Shown piece by piece: positions 401-8,089 of a stretch of 9,707 bases of DNA (its first letter is position 1; the number at the start of each line of letters is the position of its first letter). The translations under genes and the position numbers were made by a program. Below the pieces are notes generated by a model, which was given only the letters and a program-made list of their open reading frames with translations, searched no databases and had not been told where the DNA came from. This DNA is from Pirellulaceae bacterium (GTDB taxonomy: Bacteria > Planctomycetota > Planctomycetia > Pirellulales > Pirellulaceae). The stretch spans positions 1 to 9,707 of the forward strand of contig JABDKS010000622.1 of the NCBI GenBank assembly GCA_013002105.1, read 5' to 3'.

Positions 401-1762
401 GTGAAAAGCAACCTTGCCAAACGTGGGTTTCTGAGTCTGATTTCCTCGCAGTTTTTTGGAGCCATGAATGACAATATCCTCAAAGGGATTTTGACATTCA
501 TGGTCATTGATGGTGCATGGGCAGGTCAGCTCGGCCGCGGCGGTCAGGGCATCGTGGGAATGTTTTTTACGATCCCATTCATCTTGTTATCCGGATACGC
601 CGGCCAAATCGCCGATCGCTACTCCAAACGAAAGGTGTTGATCGGTGTCAAGATCGCCGAGATCCCGATCGCGATCGTTGCCTTGGCCGGGTTTTGGACC
701 GGCAATCTTTGGATCACATTGGCGTCATTGATTCTGCTGACCTGTCAGAGTTCGTTTTTCGGACCGGCAAAATACGGGATGATCCCTGAGTTGGTCGAAG
801 ACTCCGATCTCAGCCGCGCCAACGGCACGATCAACATGATGACCAACATCGCCGTCATCGTTGGGACGCTGGCAGCCGGCTTTATCAGCGATCTCTATAG
901 TCCGCAAAACATCGGAACAGCGATTCCCTGGCTACCCGGTGCCACGCTCACGATTGTGGCGCTGCTGGGGTTGGGGGCGGCTGTCTTCATGACTCCCTTG
1001 CACCCGGGCGATCGCGACTTGCAATGGGACTGGAATCCCTTCAGCACCTACATCGATGCTGTTAGCGAGATGTCCAAGTCACGATTGTTGATGGTCATGC
1101 TGGCGTGGGGTTACTTTTACCTGCTCGCGGGACTCGCACTGTTCATCGTGCCCGAGTACACGGTCGTGTTGGGCGTCAATCGTGCCGAGGCCAGCGTCCT
1201 GTTGGGGGTGATGGGCATCGCGATTGGCATCGGTTGTGCCGTTGCAGGATTGATCTCGGGGCACCGAATCGAAACACGTTTGATTCCAATTGGTGCCGTC
1301 GGACTGGTTCTCTTTTTTGCGTTGTTGGCGCTCGTTCCGCCGTCGCTGCCCAATTTGCGGCCGATGGTGCGAGTCGCGCTCAGTAGCGTGTCGCTGTTCA
1401 TTTTCGGTGCTGGTTTTTCGGCCGGTTTTTACATCGTGCCGCTACAAGCGTTACTGCAAAAAATGTCGCCCGACGATGAACGGGGTCGATTCTTGGGGAC
1501 CGCGAACGCATGCTCGTTTACATTCTTGACGATCGCAGCTGGATTGTATGCTGTGATCCGCCCGGCTTTTGGGGACAGTCCCCAATACATCTTTTTGATC
1601 TGTTCGCTGCTGATGGCGGCAGGCGCCGGGTATTTCTTGTGGAAACTACGCGGCACCGGTTTTTTGATCGGAGCGGGGATCCCACATGATTCGCCACTTA
1701 ACACACCGGCACCCACCACGCCAAACGAAACGGGCAATCCTTACCAACCGCCCGAATCTTAG
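401..1762 (+). CDS. MFS transporter, LplT-like (lysophospholipid transporter family)
   Basis: A 453-residue, very hydrophobic protein with the usual twelve-helix MFS length, predicted in the inner membrane. Family signs are the N-terminal SSQFFGAMNDNILKG (residues 15-29), the MFS motif A loop GQIADRYSKRK (68-78), and FGPAKYGMIPEL (120-131) followed by SRANG (138-142). In E. coli LplT the matching stretch is PAKYGILGEL followed by ANG. LplT flips lysophospholipids across the inner membrane for re-acylation by Aas. No acyltransferase domain or gene is next to it here, so substrate is inferred from family only. The start is GTG: an in-frame TAA lies at 347-349 and no other start codon falls between it and 401. 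The first helix begins about ten residues in, as in LplT. The polar tail ends in NPYQPPES, a type of short motif I associate with planctomycete membrane proteins. It converges with the channel gene. Confidence 0.8.
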   Translation: MKSNLAKRGFLSLISSQFFGAMNDNILKGILTFMVIDGAWAGQLGRGGQGIVGMFFTIPFILLSGYAGQIADRYSKRKVLIGVKIAEIPIAIVALAGFWTGNLWITLASLILLTCQSSFFGPAKYGMIPELVEDSDLSRANGTINMMTNIAVIVGTLAAGFISDLYSPQNIGTAIPWLPGATLTIVALLGLGAAVFMTPLHPGDRDLQWDWNPFSTYIDAVSEMSKSRLLMVMLAWGYFYLLAGLALFIVPEYTVVLGVNRAEASVLLGVMGIAIGIGCAVAGLISGHRIETRLIPIGAVGLVLFFALLALVPPSLPNLRPMVRVALSSVSLFIFGAGFSAGFYIVPLQALLQKMSPDDERGRFLGTANACSFTFLTIAAGLYAVIRPAFGDSPQYIFLICSLLMAAGAGYFLWKLRGTGFLIGAGIPHDSPLNTPAPTTPNETGNPYQPPES

Positions 1763-1797
1763 AGTTCTTCGATTCACCGTCGTGCGAGGACCTCTTC

Positions 1798-1887
1798 TGA
1801 CCAGACGCTGCCACGACAGGACCTGACCGGCGCCTTCGGCGACGGCAACAGAATTGACAACGTCTGATCAAACACTCGGTCTGGTCA
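1798..1887. repeat. 9-bp inverted repeat linking the intergenic region to the 17-bp array
   Basis: TGACCAGAC at 1798-1806 is the exact reverse complement of GTCTGGTCA at 1879-1887, which is part of unit 2 of the tandem array. The two arms lie between the convergent transporter and channel genes. They could pair in read-through RNA from either strand, but the loop is about 70 bases and there is no T-run, so a terminator role is a guess. Confidence 0.3.
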
Positions 1888-1946
1888 AACACTCGGTCTG
1901 ATCAAACACTCGGTCTGGTTAAACACTCGGTCTGGTTAAACACTCG
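1862..1946. repeat. Five tandem copies of a 17-bp unit (minisatellite)
   Basis: Five perfectly abutting 17-bp copies of GTCTGRTYAAACACTCG start at 1862, 1879, 1896, 1913 and 1930. Only two positions vary. Copies 1 and 3 are identical (GATC core), copy 2 has GGTC, and copies 4 and 5 are identical (GGTT). The copy at 1930-1946 holds the last two codons and the TAA stop (1936-1938) of the minus-strand channel gene. The array therefore begins inside the gene's 3' end and extends into its 3' flank. There are no spacers between copies. It probably arose by slippage or unequal exchange. Confidence 0.95.
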
Positions 1947-2727
1947 GCGCGTCACCGCGATCTTCCAGCAACTGCTTCAATTCCGCGACCTGCTGGCTCA
2001 GCTGATCAATTTTCTCTTCCAGATCCTCGTTGTTGTCCATCGTCATTTCATCAACGAAAACCGCGTTGGCCAGGCTCATTCCAAAAACACCACCCAACAA
2101 CACGATCAACCCGAAATACAAACGCGTGATCCCGATTACCCAGGGCCGATCGGTTCTTTCAGCGATCAACTTAGGAATCTCATACCAGCCTTCGATCGTA
2201 AACATCTTGAAGACCGAGTAGAGGCTGATCAGGGGATCGCCGAAATGTTCGGGGACGATGTCACGATAAAAATGACAGGTGACGATCGAAAAGATGAATA
2301 GCAAGAACCCCAGCGCAAACAAAACGAAGACACTCGCCCGCATCGCTCGCGCAAGTCCTACGAGAATGTGATGCATGTTGGGCACAAATCGCACCAAACG
2401 GGCCAGTCGCGCCAAACGAAATAGACGTAAGATGATGAAGACACCGGTGTCCGGGATATCGGTAAACGGTACCAACAGCGTCGGAAAGCTCAGCACGACG
2501 ATCGCAAAATCAAATCGATTCCAACCGCGTGCAAAGTAGCGGGCGACACCGTAAGTCGAAATCTTCACCGCAGCTTCGACGACAAACAGCACGATGAACG
2601 CCATGTCGACATATTCCAGCCACTTTACGTCCCGTAAGCCGGGAAAATAGAAGGCGTAGATCACCAGTGCGTTGATCGCTACCGCGGTCAACATTAGACG
2701 CTCACTCAGTAGCAAACGTTTCAACAT
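1936..2727 (-). CDS. Voltage-gated cation channel, one-domain BacNav/CavMr-like (Ion_trans)
   Basis: A 263-residue inner-membrane protein with one six-helix ion-channel repeat, so it should work as a homotetramer. Approximate layout: S1 10-27, S2 40-57, S3 73-87 (WNRFDF, the usual acidic S3 start), S4 95-113, S5 130-152, pore helix 166-177, S6 198-226. S4 has five arginines exactly every third residue (R101, 104, 107, 110, 113), which is the voltage-sensor pattern. The pore reads FKMFTIEGWYEI, with filter TIEGWYE at 177-183. NaChBac-type sodium channels have TLESW here; CavMr has TLEGW. After S6 comes an acidic linker and a coiled coil (about 233-255, LEEKIDQLSQQVAELKQLL), as in the BacNav C-terminal bundle. 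The length is close to NaChBac's 274. I chose ATG at 2727; an in-frame GTG at 2736 would add three residues. It lies 52 bases downstream of thiC on the same strand, so co-transcription is possible. The last codons and stop lie in a 17-bp tandem repeat. Confidence 0.9.
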   Translation of the reverse strand: MLKRLLLSERLMLTAVAINALVIYAFYFPGLRDVKWLEYVDMAFIVLFVVEAAVKISTYGVARYFARGWNRFDFAIVVLSFPTLLVPFTDIPDTGVFIILRLFRLARLARLVRFVPNMHHILVGLARAMRASVFVLFALGFLLFIFSIVTCHFYRDIVPEHFGDPLISLYSVFKMFTIEGWYEIPKLIAERTDRPWVIGITRLYFGLIVLLGGVFGMSLANAVFVDEMTMDNNEDLEEKIDQLSQQVAELKQLLEDRGDAPSV

Positions 2728-2779
2728 CGCACCCACTACTTGCTATTGGATTGCCAGCAACGAACGGCAGAACCACCCA

Positions 2780-4162
<1,383 letters not shown>

Positions 4163-4179
4163 TCATTTTAAAGCCGCCT

Positions 4180-4250
4180 CTCACTGTGTGAGTGGTGGCC
4201 GGAGCGGCCGATCGCCGACATTGTTTATACGCTCCGAACGTTGTTTGGAG
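4180..4250. other. Two small hairpins between the cytochrome gene and thiC
   Basis: The 154-base gap holds two inverted repeats. CTCC at 4232-4235 plus AAC at 4237-4239 face GTT at 4243-4245 plus GGAG at 4247-4250, with one mismatch on the transcribed strand. This hairpin starts 15 bases after the cytochrome stop, where a terminator might sit, but it has no U-run. CTCAC at 4180-4184 faces GTGAG at 4188-4192 with a three-base loop, within the presumed thiC leader. Role unknown. Confidence 0.3.
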
Positions 4251-4265
4251 TAGGTCCCCGCCGAC

Positions 4266-5624
4266 TCACAACGTCTTGAGATACTCCAGAACCGCCCGTT
4301 TTTCCGGCTCTGTCAATGCGGCGGGATAATCGTGGCCGGTGTTACTTTTACCGAACCGACGGGTATCGAAAAAGCTTCGACGAACCGCGACATCGACTTG
4401 CGTCAGTGGCACCTTGTCGACCACCTCGATTTCAAAGCCAACTTTTTCCCCGTCCATCGCTTCGGCCACACGCCGCCAGATGGTCGGTCGCTGGTCCGGA
4501 TGCAGCAAATGCCACAGCGTGGGAATGCTGCCATTGTGCAAATACGGCGGGCTGGCCCATACACCGTCCAGCGGCGGTGCGACGTAGCCGTCCGGATCGA
4601 CGACGGTCGAGTGCTCGTCGCTCTCACCGGCATGTGCAAACCAACTTTCGGAATAGTGCCGGCGACCTTTGACGTCCAATGCGGTTAATCGAACGCTGTC
4701 TGTCTGTAACTCCGAAATCGGAACGCGGCGATTAGGATAACTCCCGTCGGGTCCGTACGTCCCGTGACACTCGGCGCAATTCGAACGAAATACCTGTTCG
4801 CCCTGTCGGGCAAGACCATGATCAATTGCACCGTCGTACTTGGGCGGCTGCAACGAGGACAAGTAGGCGTAGACATCGCGAAAATCGTTCTCGTGGTTCC
4901 GAAAAAACTCCGGTCCGTTTTCCGGAACGAGCGTAAACTGCATCAATCCACGATGCCCTTTCTGTGCAAACCCATCGATGTACAGATAAGGACGCTTGGA
5001 AAAATGCCACCACGGCGGCGCGTCCATGTCATGGTGCGTGAACAGCACCGGCGGACGATTGACCAGATTCAGTTGGCCATCGCGGCGATGCAATAATCCT
5101 TGACCGAACACCACCGCATTGGTTGTCCCATGAGTTGTGCCCAGTGGTATCACCACCGACGCGACATCCATCCGTGACAGCGGTATCCCCTGACGGAATT
5201 TCGTGCGACGTATCTCTTCGGAAAGCGTCTGCAATGCAAATCGGTTGTTCGGTGCGCCCGGCGTCGGCTTCCCATAGACACTTCCGCCGTGACACGAAAA
5301 ACAATTCATCGTCCACGCACCGTCGGGACTGACGACGTATTGCAGTGGTTTTCCGGAATCATCACCCGGCCGAACCGTTAAACCATACCGCTGGAACGCC
5401 ATTTCGCGACGCCGCTCAATCGTCGCCTTCTCGGCTTCACTACGCAGCGGCTCGGGCCAACTGGTCCAAATCTGATCGAACGTCGCTTGATCAAAATCAG
5501 GCGGCAGATATGGCCTCTCGGTCAGATTTTGGTACCCACGTCGCAGTGCATCATCGCCCCAACACTCACCAACAAAAATGATGGCAAATACGACGACAAA
5601 CGACAAAGATAGTTTGCGACACAT
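4266..5624 (-). CDS. Secreted diheme c-type cytochrome, RoxA/CcpA-like
   Basis: A 452-residue predicted periplasmic protein. It starts with a signal peptide (residues 1-22: basic CRK, then SLSFVVVFAIIFVG, then the end near CWG). Two CXXCH heme c sites are visible: CFSCH at 108-112 and CAECH at 283-287. Near the C-terminus is APPLDGVWASPPYLHNGS (about 349-366) followed by IPTLWHLL and later NTGHDYP (428-434). That PPYLHNGS-PTL block is typical of the diheme peroxidase, MauG and RoxA-like families. The length is above classical CcpA (about 320-350) and well below the RoxA rubber oxygenase (near 680). The reaction is therefore open: peroxide reduction, electron transfer or an oxygenase-type role. 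I chose ATG at 5624 because it gives a clean signal peptide; an in-frame GTG at 5651 would add nine residues. It lies 121 bases downstream of the glycosyltransferase on the same strand and 154 bases upstream of thiC. Confidence 0.85.
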   Translation of the reverse strand: MCRKLSLSFVVVFAIIFVGECWGDDALRRGYQNLTERPYLPPDFDQATFDQIWTSWPEPLRSEAEKATIERRREMAFQRYGLTVRPGDDSGKPLQYVVSPDGAWTMNCFSCHGGSVYGKPTPGAPNNRFALQTLSEEIRRTKFRQGIPLSRMDVASVVIPLGTTHGTTNAVVFGQGLLHRRDGQLNLVNRPPVLFTHHDMDAPPWWHFSKRPYLYIDGFAQKGHRGLMQFTLVPENGPEFFRNHENDFRDVYAYLSSLQPPKYDGAIDHGLARQGEQVFRSNCAECHGTYGPDGSYPNRRVPISELQTDSVRLTALDVKGRRHYSESWFAHAGESDEHSTVVDPDGYVAPPLDGVWASPPYLHNGSIPTLWHLLHPDQRPTIWRRVAEAMDGEKVGFEIEVVDKVPLTQVDVAVRRSFFDTRRFGKSNTGHDYPAALTEPEKRAVLEYLKTL

Positions 5625-5745
5625 CGATGCAGATACGAGTAGAACGTTCACATGTTAAGGATAGACCGCTGGCTAGGGTTTCGTCCAGTTTTCGGTCACA
5701 GCAAGGATTCACTATGGCATGCTGCCCGTCAGGTCGATGCGGCGC

Positions 5746-7377
5746 CTACCTATTGTATGTACCCAGATCGATAGGTTCCCAACCGTCCAGCAACCTGGGG
5801 CGCAACACATCAAATCGAACCACGTGAACACGACCAAAACTTTTCAGTTCGTAATGGAGTTGCTGGGAAATTTCCCAATTTGTGACCTGACGCGCGAACG
5901 CCTGGCGGGACGAACGCGCGACGAACCAAATATGCTCACGGCCCGAGTCCGTGAAATCCACGTTCCCTCGGCCAGGGCGTCGATAAGATTCGGTGGCCCG
6001 GATCGAGAATCCGAAGTGATCGACCTTGAAACCGCGACTCCAATCCTGACGGACGAACCCTTCTTTCAATTTCTCCAAACGATACGGACCGGACAGGGGA
6101 AACAAAAAATAACCGCTCCCGAGTCGCTCCCTATTGCCCCACGCAAACGGCTGCTGTCCTTCGACCAACCCGCTGTCCAACAGCACTGCATCGCTCGGCG
6201 CTCGCGAACTCGCGATCCACGCGGCTGCCCCGCGCCAATCTTCGCCTCGAAAAACCAACTGAGTCTTCCCGTTCCGCCACTGTGTGATCGTATCCTGCTG
6301 CCACGTCAACAGACCGATTAAACAGACGACGAGACCCATTGCGGCACTCGTCCGCCACTTCCCGGACTCGTTGGGCAACACCAACAACGCACATCCGCCG
6401 GTCGACCAGGCGAGCATTGGCAGGGCGGCAACGAAGTAGCGCCGATGCCAGAGCGGCACCCAATCAAAGTAGGACGCGGCAAAAAAGAGACAAGTGGCAG
6501 TGACCGCAGCCGCCGCAGGAACGAATGCTTGCACCACCTCGACCACCCTCCGCGTTCTCAATGCCGTCACGGCAAGAAATCCGGGCAAGATCGCCAACGG
6601 GATCCAATCCCAAATCAGCCAAAGTTGCCGCAGTGAGGATGCCTGTCCAAACGCCCGCCACTGATTACGATTCTCCCATGAATCCCCCAGCGATGAATGG
6701 AGCAACGAAAACGCCACTGCCGCGATCAAAATGCACGCCACAACGTCGGAGATCTGAAATTGCCACAAGGAACGGTGCTGCAAAAAACTGACCAGCAGCG
6801 TCAACCCAACGAGAATTCCCAGCGTTACCACTGCGGTCGGATGCAAGAGTGCCGCACAGCAGACAGCTGACACCAGGATCAATCGCAGATTCGCGCGCCC
6901 GATCGTCCGAGCGTGTGTCAACATCGCGACCGCGGCCCACGTTGCGATCACGGTAAACAACATCACAAACGCGTAGGGTCGAAATTCGGTGCCAAAGAAC
7001 ACCGAATTGGACTCGACGGCTAAAACGAGGCCCGACAAGACCCCGGCCGACAAATCCTGCGTCGTTTGCCGCACACCGAGCACCAACAACGCTGACGCGG
7101 TGGCAACTGCCAGCACACTGCTCATTCGCAGCGCGACTTCGGAGTCACCCACGATCGATTTCCAGATCCACATGACCTGAAAATACAGAGGCGTTTGGTT
7201 ACCGAGAGTCGCCCGTTTCGATACCTCCGAAAGATCGGCCCAGACCGCCCACGCTGTGTGCAGTTCGTCGACCCAAAAACTCTGGTAGCAAGAAGGCAAC
7301 CGAATCAGAATCGCCAGGACAAACACGATCCCCGCCGCAATCACTGTCGACCATTGATCACGGGAAAAAAGTTTCAT
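5746..7377 (-). CDS. GT39-type integral membrane glycosyltransferase
   Basis: A 543-residue protein with about ten hydrophobic segments up to roughly residue 365, then a soluble region of about 180 residues, probably periplasmic. The first periplasmic loop has SFWVDELHTAW (33-43), whose Asp-Glu pair (37-38) is the catalytic acidic motif of GT-C enzymes of the ArnT/PMT kind. TPLYF at 62-66 corresponds to the common PPLYY motif. TEFRPYAF (130-137) matches the usual second-loop ARPYA motif. Such enzymes move a sugar from a polyprenyl-phosphate donor to protein, lipid or glycan at the outer face of the membrane. Donor and acceptor cannot be told from sequence. The soluble tail (including FRGEDWRGAAAWI and later GREHIWFVARS) is common in bacterial family members and may bind the acceptor. 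The start is ATG at 7377; no Shine-Dalgarno site is visible. The gene's upstream region is the palindromic repeat array, whose nearest half-unit is 14 bases from the ATG. Confidence 0.8.
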   Translation of the reverse strand: MKLFSRDQWSTVIAAGIVFVLAILIRLPSCYQSFWVDELHTAWAVWADLSEVSKRATLGNQTPLYFQVMWIWKSIVGDSEVALRMSSVLAVATASALLVLGVRQTTQDLSAGVLSGLVLAVESNSVFFGTEFRPYAFVMLFTVIATWAAVAMLTHARTIGRANLRLILVSAVCCAALLHPTAVVTLGILVGLTLLVSFLQHRSLWQFQISDVVACILIAAVAFSLLHSSLGDSWENRNQWRAFGQASSLRQLWLIWDWIPLAILPGFLAVTALRTRRVVEVVQAFVPAAAAVTATCLFFAASYFDWVPLWHRRYFVAALPMLAWSTGGCALLVLPNESGKWRTSAAMGLVVCLIGLLTWQQDTITQWRNGKTQLVFRGEDWRGAAAWIASSRAPSDAVLLDSGLVEGQQPFAWGNRERLGSGYFLFPLSGPYRLEKLKEGFVRQDWSRGFKVDHFGFSIRATESYRRPGRGNVDFTDSGREHIWFVARSSRQAFARQVTNWEISQQLHYELKSFGRVHVVRFDVLRPRLLDGWEPIDLGTYNR

Positions 7378-7535
7378 ATTACATTGATACAGTAGCCGTC
7401 ACGCTCCGTCGTGACGAAGCCGGAGCGAAAAACAATTTTCAAAAACAATTGCGGATCGAAAGCAAAAACTCTCCGACAGCAAGCAAACTTGATCTGCAAC
7501 CTACGATCCAAAACATAAATGATCGTGGACCAACC

Positions 7536-7609
7536 GTCGGGCTACATCACGCGGAGCGTGATGGCCACTTGCAAAGTAGCCGTCACGCTCCGTCGTGACG
7601 AAGCCCGAC
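7536..7609. repeat. Paired REP-like palindrome (BIME-like cruciform), copy 1
   Basis: Outer arms GTCGGGC (7536-7542) and GCCCGAC (7603-7609) enclose two inner hairpins, ATCACGC/GCGTGAT on the left and GTCACG/CGTGAC on the right, joined by a short TTGCAAA linker. The whole can fold as a two-armed cruciform. The second base of each paired arm has drifted while pairing is kept, for example ATCACGC/GCGTGAT against GTCACG/CGTGAC, which suggests selection for structure. Confidence 0.9.
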
Positions 7610-7720
7610 CGAAAAACAATCTTCCAAAACAATTGCGGATCGAAAGCAAAAACTCTCCGACAGCGAGCAAACTTGATCTGCAACCTATGATCCAAAACCA
7701 CAAATGATCGTGAATAAACC

Positions 7721-7793
7721 GTCGGGCTTCATCACGCGGAGCGTGATGGCCACTTTCAAAGTAGCCGTCACGCTCCGCGTGACGAAGCCCGAC
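7721..7793. repeat. Paired REP-like palindrome (BIME-like cruciform), copy 2
   Basis: Same layout as the first cruciform, with a TTTCAAA linker. This copy has lost one base in the right loop, so its right arm is GTCACGC-TCC-GCGTGAC, a seven-base-pair stem with a three-base loop. It is the most symmetrical of the three. Confidence 0.9.
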
Positions 7794-7903
7794 CGAAAAA
7801 TAATCTTCCAAAACAACTGCGGATCGAAAGCAAAAACTCTCCGACAGCAAGCGACCTTAATCTGCAACCTACGATCCAAATCGCAAATGATCGTGAATCA
7901 ACC

Positions 7904-7977
7904 GTCGGGCTACATCACGCGGAGCGTGATGGCTACTTTCAAAATAGCCGTCACGCTCCGTCGTGACGAAGCCCGAC
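7904..7977. repeat. Paired REP-like palindrome (BIME-like cruciform), copy 3
   Basis: Same layout again. The left arm reads GGCTAC rather than GGCCAC before the linker, and the right arm begins ATAGCC rather than GTAGCC. The right hairpin loop has the longer form, as in copy 1. Confidence 0.9.
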
Positions 7978-8089
7978 CGAAAAATAATCTTCCAAAACAA
8001 CTGCGGATCGAAAGCAGAAACTCTCCGACAGCGAGCAAACTTGATCCGCAAACTACGATCCAAATCACAAATGCTCCAGAACCAACTAA

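Follow-up and report, generated by a model that had tools for sequence, protein, structure and literature searches.

The window analysed here, a 9,707-nucleotide stretch of the Pirellulaceae bacterium contig JABDKS010000622.1, encodes on its minus strand a predicted six-helix channel subunit with the selectivity filter TIEGWYE, a member of a monophyletic prokaryotic family in which the glycine at the fourth filter position is fixed. We put at roughly 55% the probability that this protein forms a homotetrameric, depolarisation-activated channel of a separate lineage that passes Ca2+ and probably some Na+. Four subunits would assemble around one pore, to be opened by S4 upon depolarisation, and the ring of four glutamates at filter position 3, the wide filter mouth at Gly-4 and an outer ring of glutamates at position 7 would admit hydrated divalent ions. 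The role of such a channel might be that of a voltage-triggered Ca2+ entry signal, within a prokaryotic lineage centred on the Saprospiraceae and present in some planctomycetes. The initial annotation of the stretch had singled out the filter as that of a candidate calcium-type channel; the observation is confirmed and was well described, and its calcium reading stands as a fair hypothesis.

Conservation of the selectivity filter

The reverse complement of 2179-2199 reads ACG ATC GAA GGC TGG TAT GAG, giving T-I-E-G-W-Y-E in frame within the open reading frame at 1936-2736 on the minus strand, exactly as first annotated. A homologue search with a cut-off of E <= 1e-3 matched 947 proteins. The best 120, including the window's own (P0001), were analysed and form the family rows referred to throughout. 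The Thr, Glu, Gly and Trp of the filter are each identical in 120/120 rows. Position 2 is Val in 48, Leu in 36, Ile in 32 and Met in 4, position 6 is Asn in 82, Tyr in 33, His in 3 and Asp in 2, and position 7 is Glu in 106, Asp in 11 and Gly, Gln or Ala in one each, so that it is acidic in 117/120. The family filter is thus an invariant T-x-E-G-W followed mostly by Asn or Tyr and then Glu or Asp. The number of matching proteins and the identity of these four residues in every row analysed argue that the filter did not arise by chance, while the counts at each position make TIEGWYE an ordinary spelling of it, found exactly in 12 of the 120 rows with the window counted. Ile-2 and Tyr-Glu at positions 6 and 7, which had seemed unfamiliar combinations, are therefore commonplace within the family. 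Serine at position 4, as in the TLESW filter of the BacNav sodium channels, occurs in none of the 120 rows. EGW is also present in all of the 80 family loci kept as the best of 170 confirmed in genomes, as well as in loci L121-L126 and L132-L142; the protein and locus sets overlap, so their counts are not additive.

A comparison set was built from 120 proteins related to a channel with the filter TLEGWVD (L099), the filter being readable in 118 (all except P0205 and P0235). In these 118 rows position 4 is Gly in 102, Asp in 11, Asn in 4 and Ala in 1, position 2 is Leu in 115, position 6 is Val, Ile, Leu or Phe in 94 and position 7 is Asp in 110 and Glu in 8. All 11 rows with Asp-4 have Thr-6, and TLEGWYE occurs twice.

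Predicted architecture

The channel protein matches the Pfam family PF00520 (Ion_trans) with an E-value of 2.1e-33 and 116 bits, above the curated cut-off of 25 bits; no NCBIfam match was found at 1e-3. The family alignment favours the ATG at 2727 over the GTG at 2736 as the start codon, and residues are numbered here in the resulting 263-residue form. With the 120-row alignment as input, the best AlphaFold2 model has a mean predicted local distance difference test (pLDDT) score of 86.2 and a predicted template modelling score of 0.66, with two of the five models at a pLDDT of 75-77. This model predicts the S1-S6 plan, with the filter lying between the pore helix P1 and a short P2-like helix, and with S6 and the C-terminal segment joined in a single helix at 195-258 (Table 1).

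S4 (ILRLFRLARLARLVRF) carries five arginines, one every three residues, of which Arg101, Arg104, Arg107 and Arg110 are invariant in the family alignment, window protein included, and Arg113 is present in at least 90% of rows. On S2, Glu51 is invariant (120/120) and Phe48 is found in at least 90% of rows, and Asp73 on S3 is likewise invariant (120/120). Glu51 and Asp73 are the usual charge partners of S4. The window protein therefore has both the regular S4 arginines and the charge-transfer residues of a voltage-gated channel. Towards the C-terminus Leu236, Ile240, Leu243, Val247, Leu250 and Leu254, as read by eye from the sequence, follow a regular 4-3 spacing, and this heptad helix is likely to form the coiled coil of a tetramer. 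The five-arginine S4, S6 and C-terminal helix of the initial annotation are all recovered in this way, with the coiled coil as the likely form of the last.

S6 differs from that of the better-known channels. In the alignment, an invariant Ser218 (120/120) occupies the site of the Asn conserved in NavAb, NaChBac and the rows of the ancestor-like group that includes CavMr and NavPp (AnclNav), while an equally invariant Asn221 (120/120) lies three residues further on. For NavAb this conserved Asn has been discussed in terms of its turn into the pore and a role in a pi-helix (PMC9754703). Asp226, Glu227, Met228, Thr229, Asp231 and Asn232 (D-E-M-T-x-D-N) are also invariant in the 120 rows, and the motif varies in more distant members, such as VDTLVADN in L135. 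The window channel has a single cysteine, Cys151, which is invariant across the family. Two cysteines within 35 residues after the filter were found in 0/120 family rows, against 113/231 AnclNav-type rows, the other 118 of which also do not have them.

Ion selectivity

CavMr of Meiothermus ruber, the only prokaryotic calcium channel identified according to a 2026 paper (PMC12919392), has the filter TLEGWVD and a calcium-to-sodium permeability ratio (PCa/PNa) above 200 (PMC7041947), so that the TLEGW given for it in the initial annotation was right, as was the glycine it has in common with the window channel. It resembles the window channel, as does AnclNav, in being a voltage-gated channel of one domain and six helices with Glu-3, Gly-4, Trp-5 and an acidic residue at position 7 (PMC7041947), and differs from it in having Leu rather than Ile at position 2, Val rather than Tyr at position 6 and Asp rather than Glu at position 7. 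Substituting its glycine lowers PCa/PNa to 11.9 (G4S) or 7.7 (G4D), and the reverse change in NavPp, D4G, brings a gain in divalent selectivity, while currents were undetectable after CavMr and NavAb had their filters exchanged (PMC7041947). A 2023 analysis also ties glycine at position 4 to calcium in one-domain channels (PMC10120453). In NavAb, Met-7 has been suggested to be indispensable for telling monovalent and divalent ions apart, and M181A mutants are non-selective, with about 10-fold Ca2+ selectivity (PMC12919392); the window channel has Glu in place of Met-7. Taken together, these published findings suggest that Gly-4 and Glu-7 make divalent permeation plausible and that the backbone decides the outcome.

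Several points weigh against passage of calcium. NavAb S178G, which has the filter TLEGW, has a PCa/PNa below 0.01 (PMC12919392), so glycine alone does not settle the ion; it favours calcium in CavMr, as first proposed, but we rejected Gly-4 by itself as proof of a calcium channel. CavMr V6T has lowered Ca2+ selectivity, and position 6 of the window channel is Tyr, while CavMr D7M is still highly Ca2+-selective, making the acidic residue at position 7 dispensable there (PMC7041947). Among the Gly-4 rows of the comparison set, 94/102 have Val, Ile, Leu or Phe at position 6 and only 4/102 have Tyr, a pairing that is mostly broken in the window family, where Gly-4 goes with Asn or Tyr. In addition, Lys174 on the pore helix of the window channel, which aligns with Gln172 of NavAb, could weaken cation entry; this site is Gln in 111 of the 120 family rows, Arg in 5, Lys in 3 and Thr in 1.

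The same features would suit a Na+-permeable channel, or one that sorts monovalent and divalent ions poorly, in which the backbone bearing the E-G-W ring does not confer CavMr-like Ca2+ selectivity. We regard this as a serious possibility, though the less probable of the two. It draws on the poor calcium passage of NavAb S178G (PMC12919392), on the polar or aromatic position 6, the weight of which is seen in CavMr V6T and in NavPp T6V (PMC7041947), on Lys174 and on the low identity of the window protein to AnclNav-type rows (20-28%). Set against it are the Glu in place of the Met-7 of NavAb (PMC12919392) and the constancy of Gly-4 and near-constancy of an acidic position 7 across the family rows. 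A natively calcium-permeable channel, as initially proposed, is plausible from Gly-4 and the acidic position 7, its ion preference being an inference from sequence. As a family of more than 100 sequences with the key glycine fixed and other filter and S6 positions different, these channels offer a natural test of how a four-fold pore chooses calcium: calcium selectivity here would mean that Gly-4 and an acidic position 7 work on a second backbone, and its absence that the backbone of CavMr is required.

Phylogenetic position

Two trees were calculated, in which CavMr and NavPp were represented by rows sharing their exact filters, which are weaker evidence than the true sequences. Neither name appears among the 120 rows listed for each of the TLEGWVD- and TLEDWTD-filter queries, most of which are nameless, nor was either seen for the 60 top PDB matches of the TLEGWVD channel, and a plasmid search with that channel gave 13 records, each below 60% identity. 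The first tree, of 59 rows and with no outgroup, holds besides the window protein 19 of the 119 other family proteins, six family loci, 16 of the 120 comparison proteins, 15 of the 22 loci L097-L118 (those other than L105, L106, L112, L113, L115, L117 and L118) and, as canonical sodium channels (NaV), NavAb and NaChBac; NavMs is in neither tree. The second, of 49 rows, retains 10 of the 19 family proteins, the same six loci, 10 of the 16 comparison proteins and 12 of the 15 loci, L101, L110 and L114 having been dropped (L101 and L114 as long branches), and adds five bacterial potassium-type channels as the root and three Cav repeat II rows. Two pieces at contig ends (L096 and L119) were omitted, as was a split planctomycete gene (L095/L120) whose two parts are in different frames.

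In the 59-row tree a single branch (100/100), with a stem about 5.5 changes per site long, separates the 26 family rows from all others, and the order of the NaV and AnclNav-type rows is not settled. In the rooted tree the family (100/100) is sister to the NaV and AnclNav-type rows together (97/92), all three joining at 98/97, and the rows with the filter types of CavMr and NavPp form a clade that excludes the family (98/95). The sister position is unchanged when the seven filter columns are removed (bootstrap 97). Approximately unbiased (AU) tests did not reject the family as one clade with either the AnclNav-type rows (p 0.137) or the NaV rows (p 0.146). Joining the family to a five-row CavMr-filter-like subclade costs 12.9 log units (p 0.054) and was also not rejected at 0.05. 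The family is firmly separate, while its exact sister is unsettled, with long branches in play. A placing of the channel with CavMr or within BacNav is not supported, the best trees, with same-filter rows for CavMr, showing a separate deep lineage. Of the comparison with proven sodium channels, what holds is that the window channel lies outside NavAb and NaChBac in the best trees, and what does not is exclusion of a joint clade.

The AU result for the AnclNav-type rows, the Gly-4 and acidic position 7 held in common and the two TLEGWYE filters of the comparison set, one letter from that of the window, would all fit a fast-diverged member of AnclNav. We think this unlikely, as the best rooted trees join NaV and AnclNav-type rows without the family, with or without the filter columns, the CavMr-filter-like grouping is costly, the family has none of the two-cysteine loops and the S6 Asn is displaced from its usual AnclNav site. 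CavMr itself is reported to have a long extracellular loop with a disulfide before S6 (PMC10120453). From the usual AnclNav filter, T-L-E-(G/D)-W-x-D in our own, unpublished reading, the window channel differs at Ile-2 and Glu-7, the latter being found in 8 of the 118 comparison rows. More tentatively, the family, with its invariant E-G-W, may be a third deep-branching prokaryotic lineage of one-domain voltage-gated channels, apart from BacNav and from CavMr and NavPp. Its members would be native calcium channels whose selectivity arose on a backbone of their own, resident in Saprospiraceae and handed on to planctomycetes.

NavAb, NaChBac and NavMs share with the window channel the fold, S4, a single pore domain in each subunit and a long helix after S6, whereas their canonical filter is TLESW against TIEGW, NavAb has Met at position 7 where the window has an acidic Glu, and identity is 22.9% to NavAb and 23.8% to NaChBac, which form a clade without the window in the best trees. 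The sperm calcium channel CatSper, which was outside the alignment and trees, shows likeness of fold; it is eukaryotic, with four different pore subunits, and has Asp at position 3 where the window channel has Glu. Repeat II of the animal Cav2 and Cav3 channels has the Ion_trans fold and filters of similar pattern, TGEDWN(A/E) and TQEDWN, within chains of four repeats, and the window is 20.0-28.6% identical to it.

Since Gly-4 occurs on three backbones in the trees (that of the window family, that of the CavMr-filter-like rows and, with the filter TVEGWPD, that of a single NavAb-like row), it was rejected as a mark of lineage. The NavAb-like row is L097, from Planctomycetota, which groups with the NavAb-like clade at 100/98 in the 59-row and 99/97 in the rooted tree and is the natural counterpart of NavAb S178G, with Gly-4 on a canonical sodium-channel backbone. 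L118 is a 779-residue open frame whose N-terminal part is a one-domain channel, with the filter TGETWPE, followed by a long C-terminal extension.

Distribution of the family

By record title, the 80 kept loci are mostly from Saprospiraceae, Lewinella and kin, with two from planctomycetes (L001 and L066). Separated from other matches by E-value, window-type channels were found in 5/392 sampled Planctomycetota genomes (E 4.7e-49 or better), in 7/241 genomes of the family of Planctomycetes bacterium K23_9 (2.0e-96 or better) and in 11/395 sampled Bacteroidota genomes (3.8e-66 or better). Each sample includes its centre genome (G001 or G003), already known to carry the gene; the K23_9-family sample also contains G002 and has G001 in common with the Planctomycetota sample. 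Weaker matches occur in 22, 14 and 29 further genomes, respectively, the next best at 3.9e-27, 3.4e-29 and 2.0e-32, and their filters, where read, are of the TLEDW, TLEGW or TLESW types, with a few others. These counts make the family a patchy one. No plasmid match to the window protein was found.

Where the window channel and L001, L066, L093 and L094 were compared in the 59-row tree, the clade of the window channel lies beside rows named as Bacteroidota, P0016 and P0019 (nine-row set, 100/99), and other planctomycete members are placed in different parts of the family. These scattered positions suggest that the channel may have passed more than once between Planctomycetota and Bacteroidota. 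Several family database rows carry the JGI name 'voltage-gated sodium channel', which may be wrong. By title and the start of the abstract, no paper describing the family was found among those listed, most subscription journals being outside the coverage; the literature searched likewise gave no paper with a TVEGW or TIEGW filter and no electrophysiological recording of a family member.

Gene neighbourhood

Table 1. Features of the channel gene and the adjacent thiC gene, in window coordinates.
Feature	Position	Strand	Residues	Remarks
thiC	2780-4135	-		Directly upstream of channel; 52 nt from thiC stop to ATG 2727
Channel gene	1936-2736	-	266 from GTG 2736 or 263 from ATG 2727	Stop 1936-1938
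S1	2653-2703	-	9-25	AlphaFold2 helix
S2	2551-2625	-	35-59	F-x-x-E pattern; AlphaFold2 and alignment
S3	2473-2526	-	68-85	WNRFD with D73; AlphaFold2 and alignment
S4 voltage sensor	2386-2445	-	95-114	R101, R104, R107, R110, R113
S4-S5 linker and S5	2266-2376	-	118-154	Invariant C151 near outer end
P1 pore helix	2200-2235	-	165-176	AlphaFold2 and alignment
Selectivity filter	2179-2199	-	177-183	TIEGWYE
Short P2-like helix after filter	2155-2178	-	183/184-191	AlphaFold2
S6 and gate motif	2029-2094	-	212-233	GGVFGMSLANAVFVDEMTMDNN; family alignment
C-terminal heptad helix	1954-2022	-	236-258	Sequence and AlphaFold2 helix 195-258

In K23_9 (L001, CP036526) one region matches the window in gene order, with the start of hisD, a threonine-aldolase-like gene, PMT, a RoxA-like cytochrome, thiC, the channel and a major facilitator superfamily (MFS) gene, the proteins being 49-83% identical. 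A related planctomycete is accordingly the most likely source of the window. ThiC is 63% and the PMT-type protein (5746-7377) 49% identical, while the MFS, cytochrome, aldolase and hisD products are at 74-83%. In the gap between thiC and the channel neither a promoter, by a simple scan that gave one site (4165-4192) in 1700-4400 where 1.5 were expected, nor a terminator-like site was seen, and co-transcription of the channel with thiC is therefore possible. Terminator-like sites in 1700-4400 number 10, against 3.2 expected in shuffles (standard deviation 2.1), and one of them (1754-1731, minus strand) lies downstream of the channel stop.

Elsewhere in the family the neighbours are different. 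Of the 79 loci with over 800 nt of preceding sequence, 51, nearly all Bacteroidota by title, carry a PF01553 acyltransferase-type gene immediately upstream of the channel and on its strand, an RNase_T-type exonuclease gene follows the channel in 36/73 loci with more than 500 nt downstream, and an MMR_HSR1 GTPase-type gene, EngB-like in our reading, is found further upstream in 34/80 loci. The acyltransferase and exonuclease neighbours were not found in the window, L001 or L066 at the sensitivity used. Annotation covered these three recurrent types, and a neighbour of another type might handle calcium. The acyltransferase hints at a membrane-lipid task and no function is on record for the family in the literature searched, as might be expected if the protein were a voltage or lipid sensor, or the product of a non-functional gene, rather than a channel conducting under voltage control in vivo. 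This would seem very improbable given the intact frame and the invariance or near-invariance of S4, the charge-transfer residues, the filter and the gate motif over the 120 rows.

The convergent neighbour of the channel in the window, at 401-1762, encodes an MFS protein with matches, all under the curated cut-offs, to LplT (1.7e-30) and to the transporter portion of acyl-ACP-phospholipid O-acyltransferase models (NF006386, 3.4e-76). Together with the acyltransferase neighbours in many Saprospiraceae, these matches make a link between the channel family and phospholipid acyl turnover possible. The RoxA-like di-haem cytochrome c protein at 4266-5651 lies under the cut-offs of the rubber dioxygenase models, with 159 bits against 900 for RoxC, and falls just under that of a di-haem cytochrome peroxidase subfamily (132.8 against 150). 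No RNA families were found in the window at gathering scores. A 184-bp unit is repeated 3.7 times (92% matches) at 7391-8073, taking up most of an intergenic gap, and 5.1 copies of a 17-bp unit (94% matches) at 1862-1947 span the channel stop and the last three codons.
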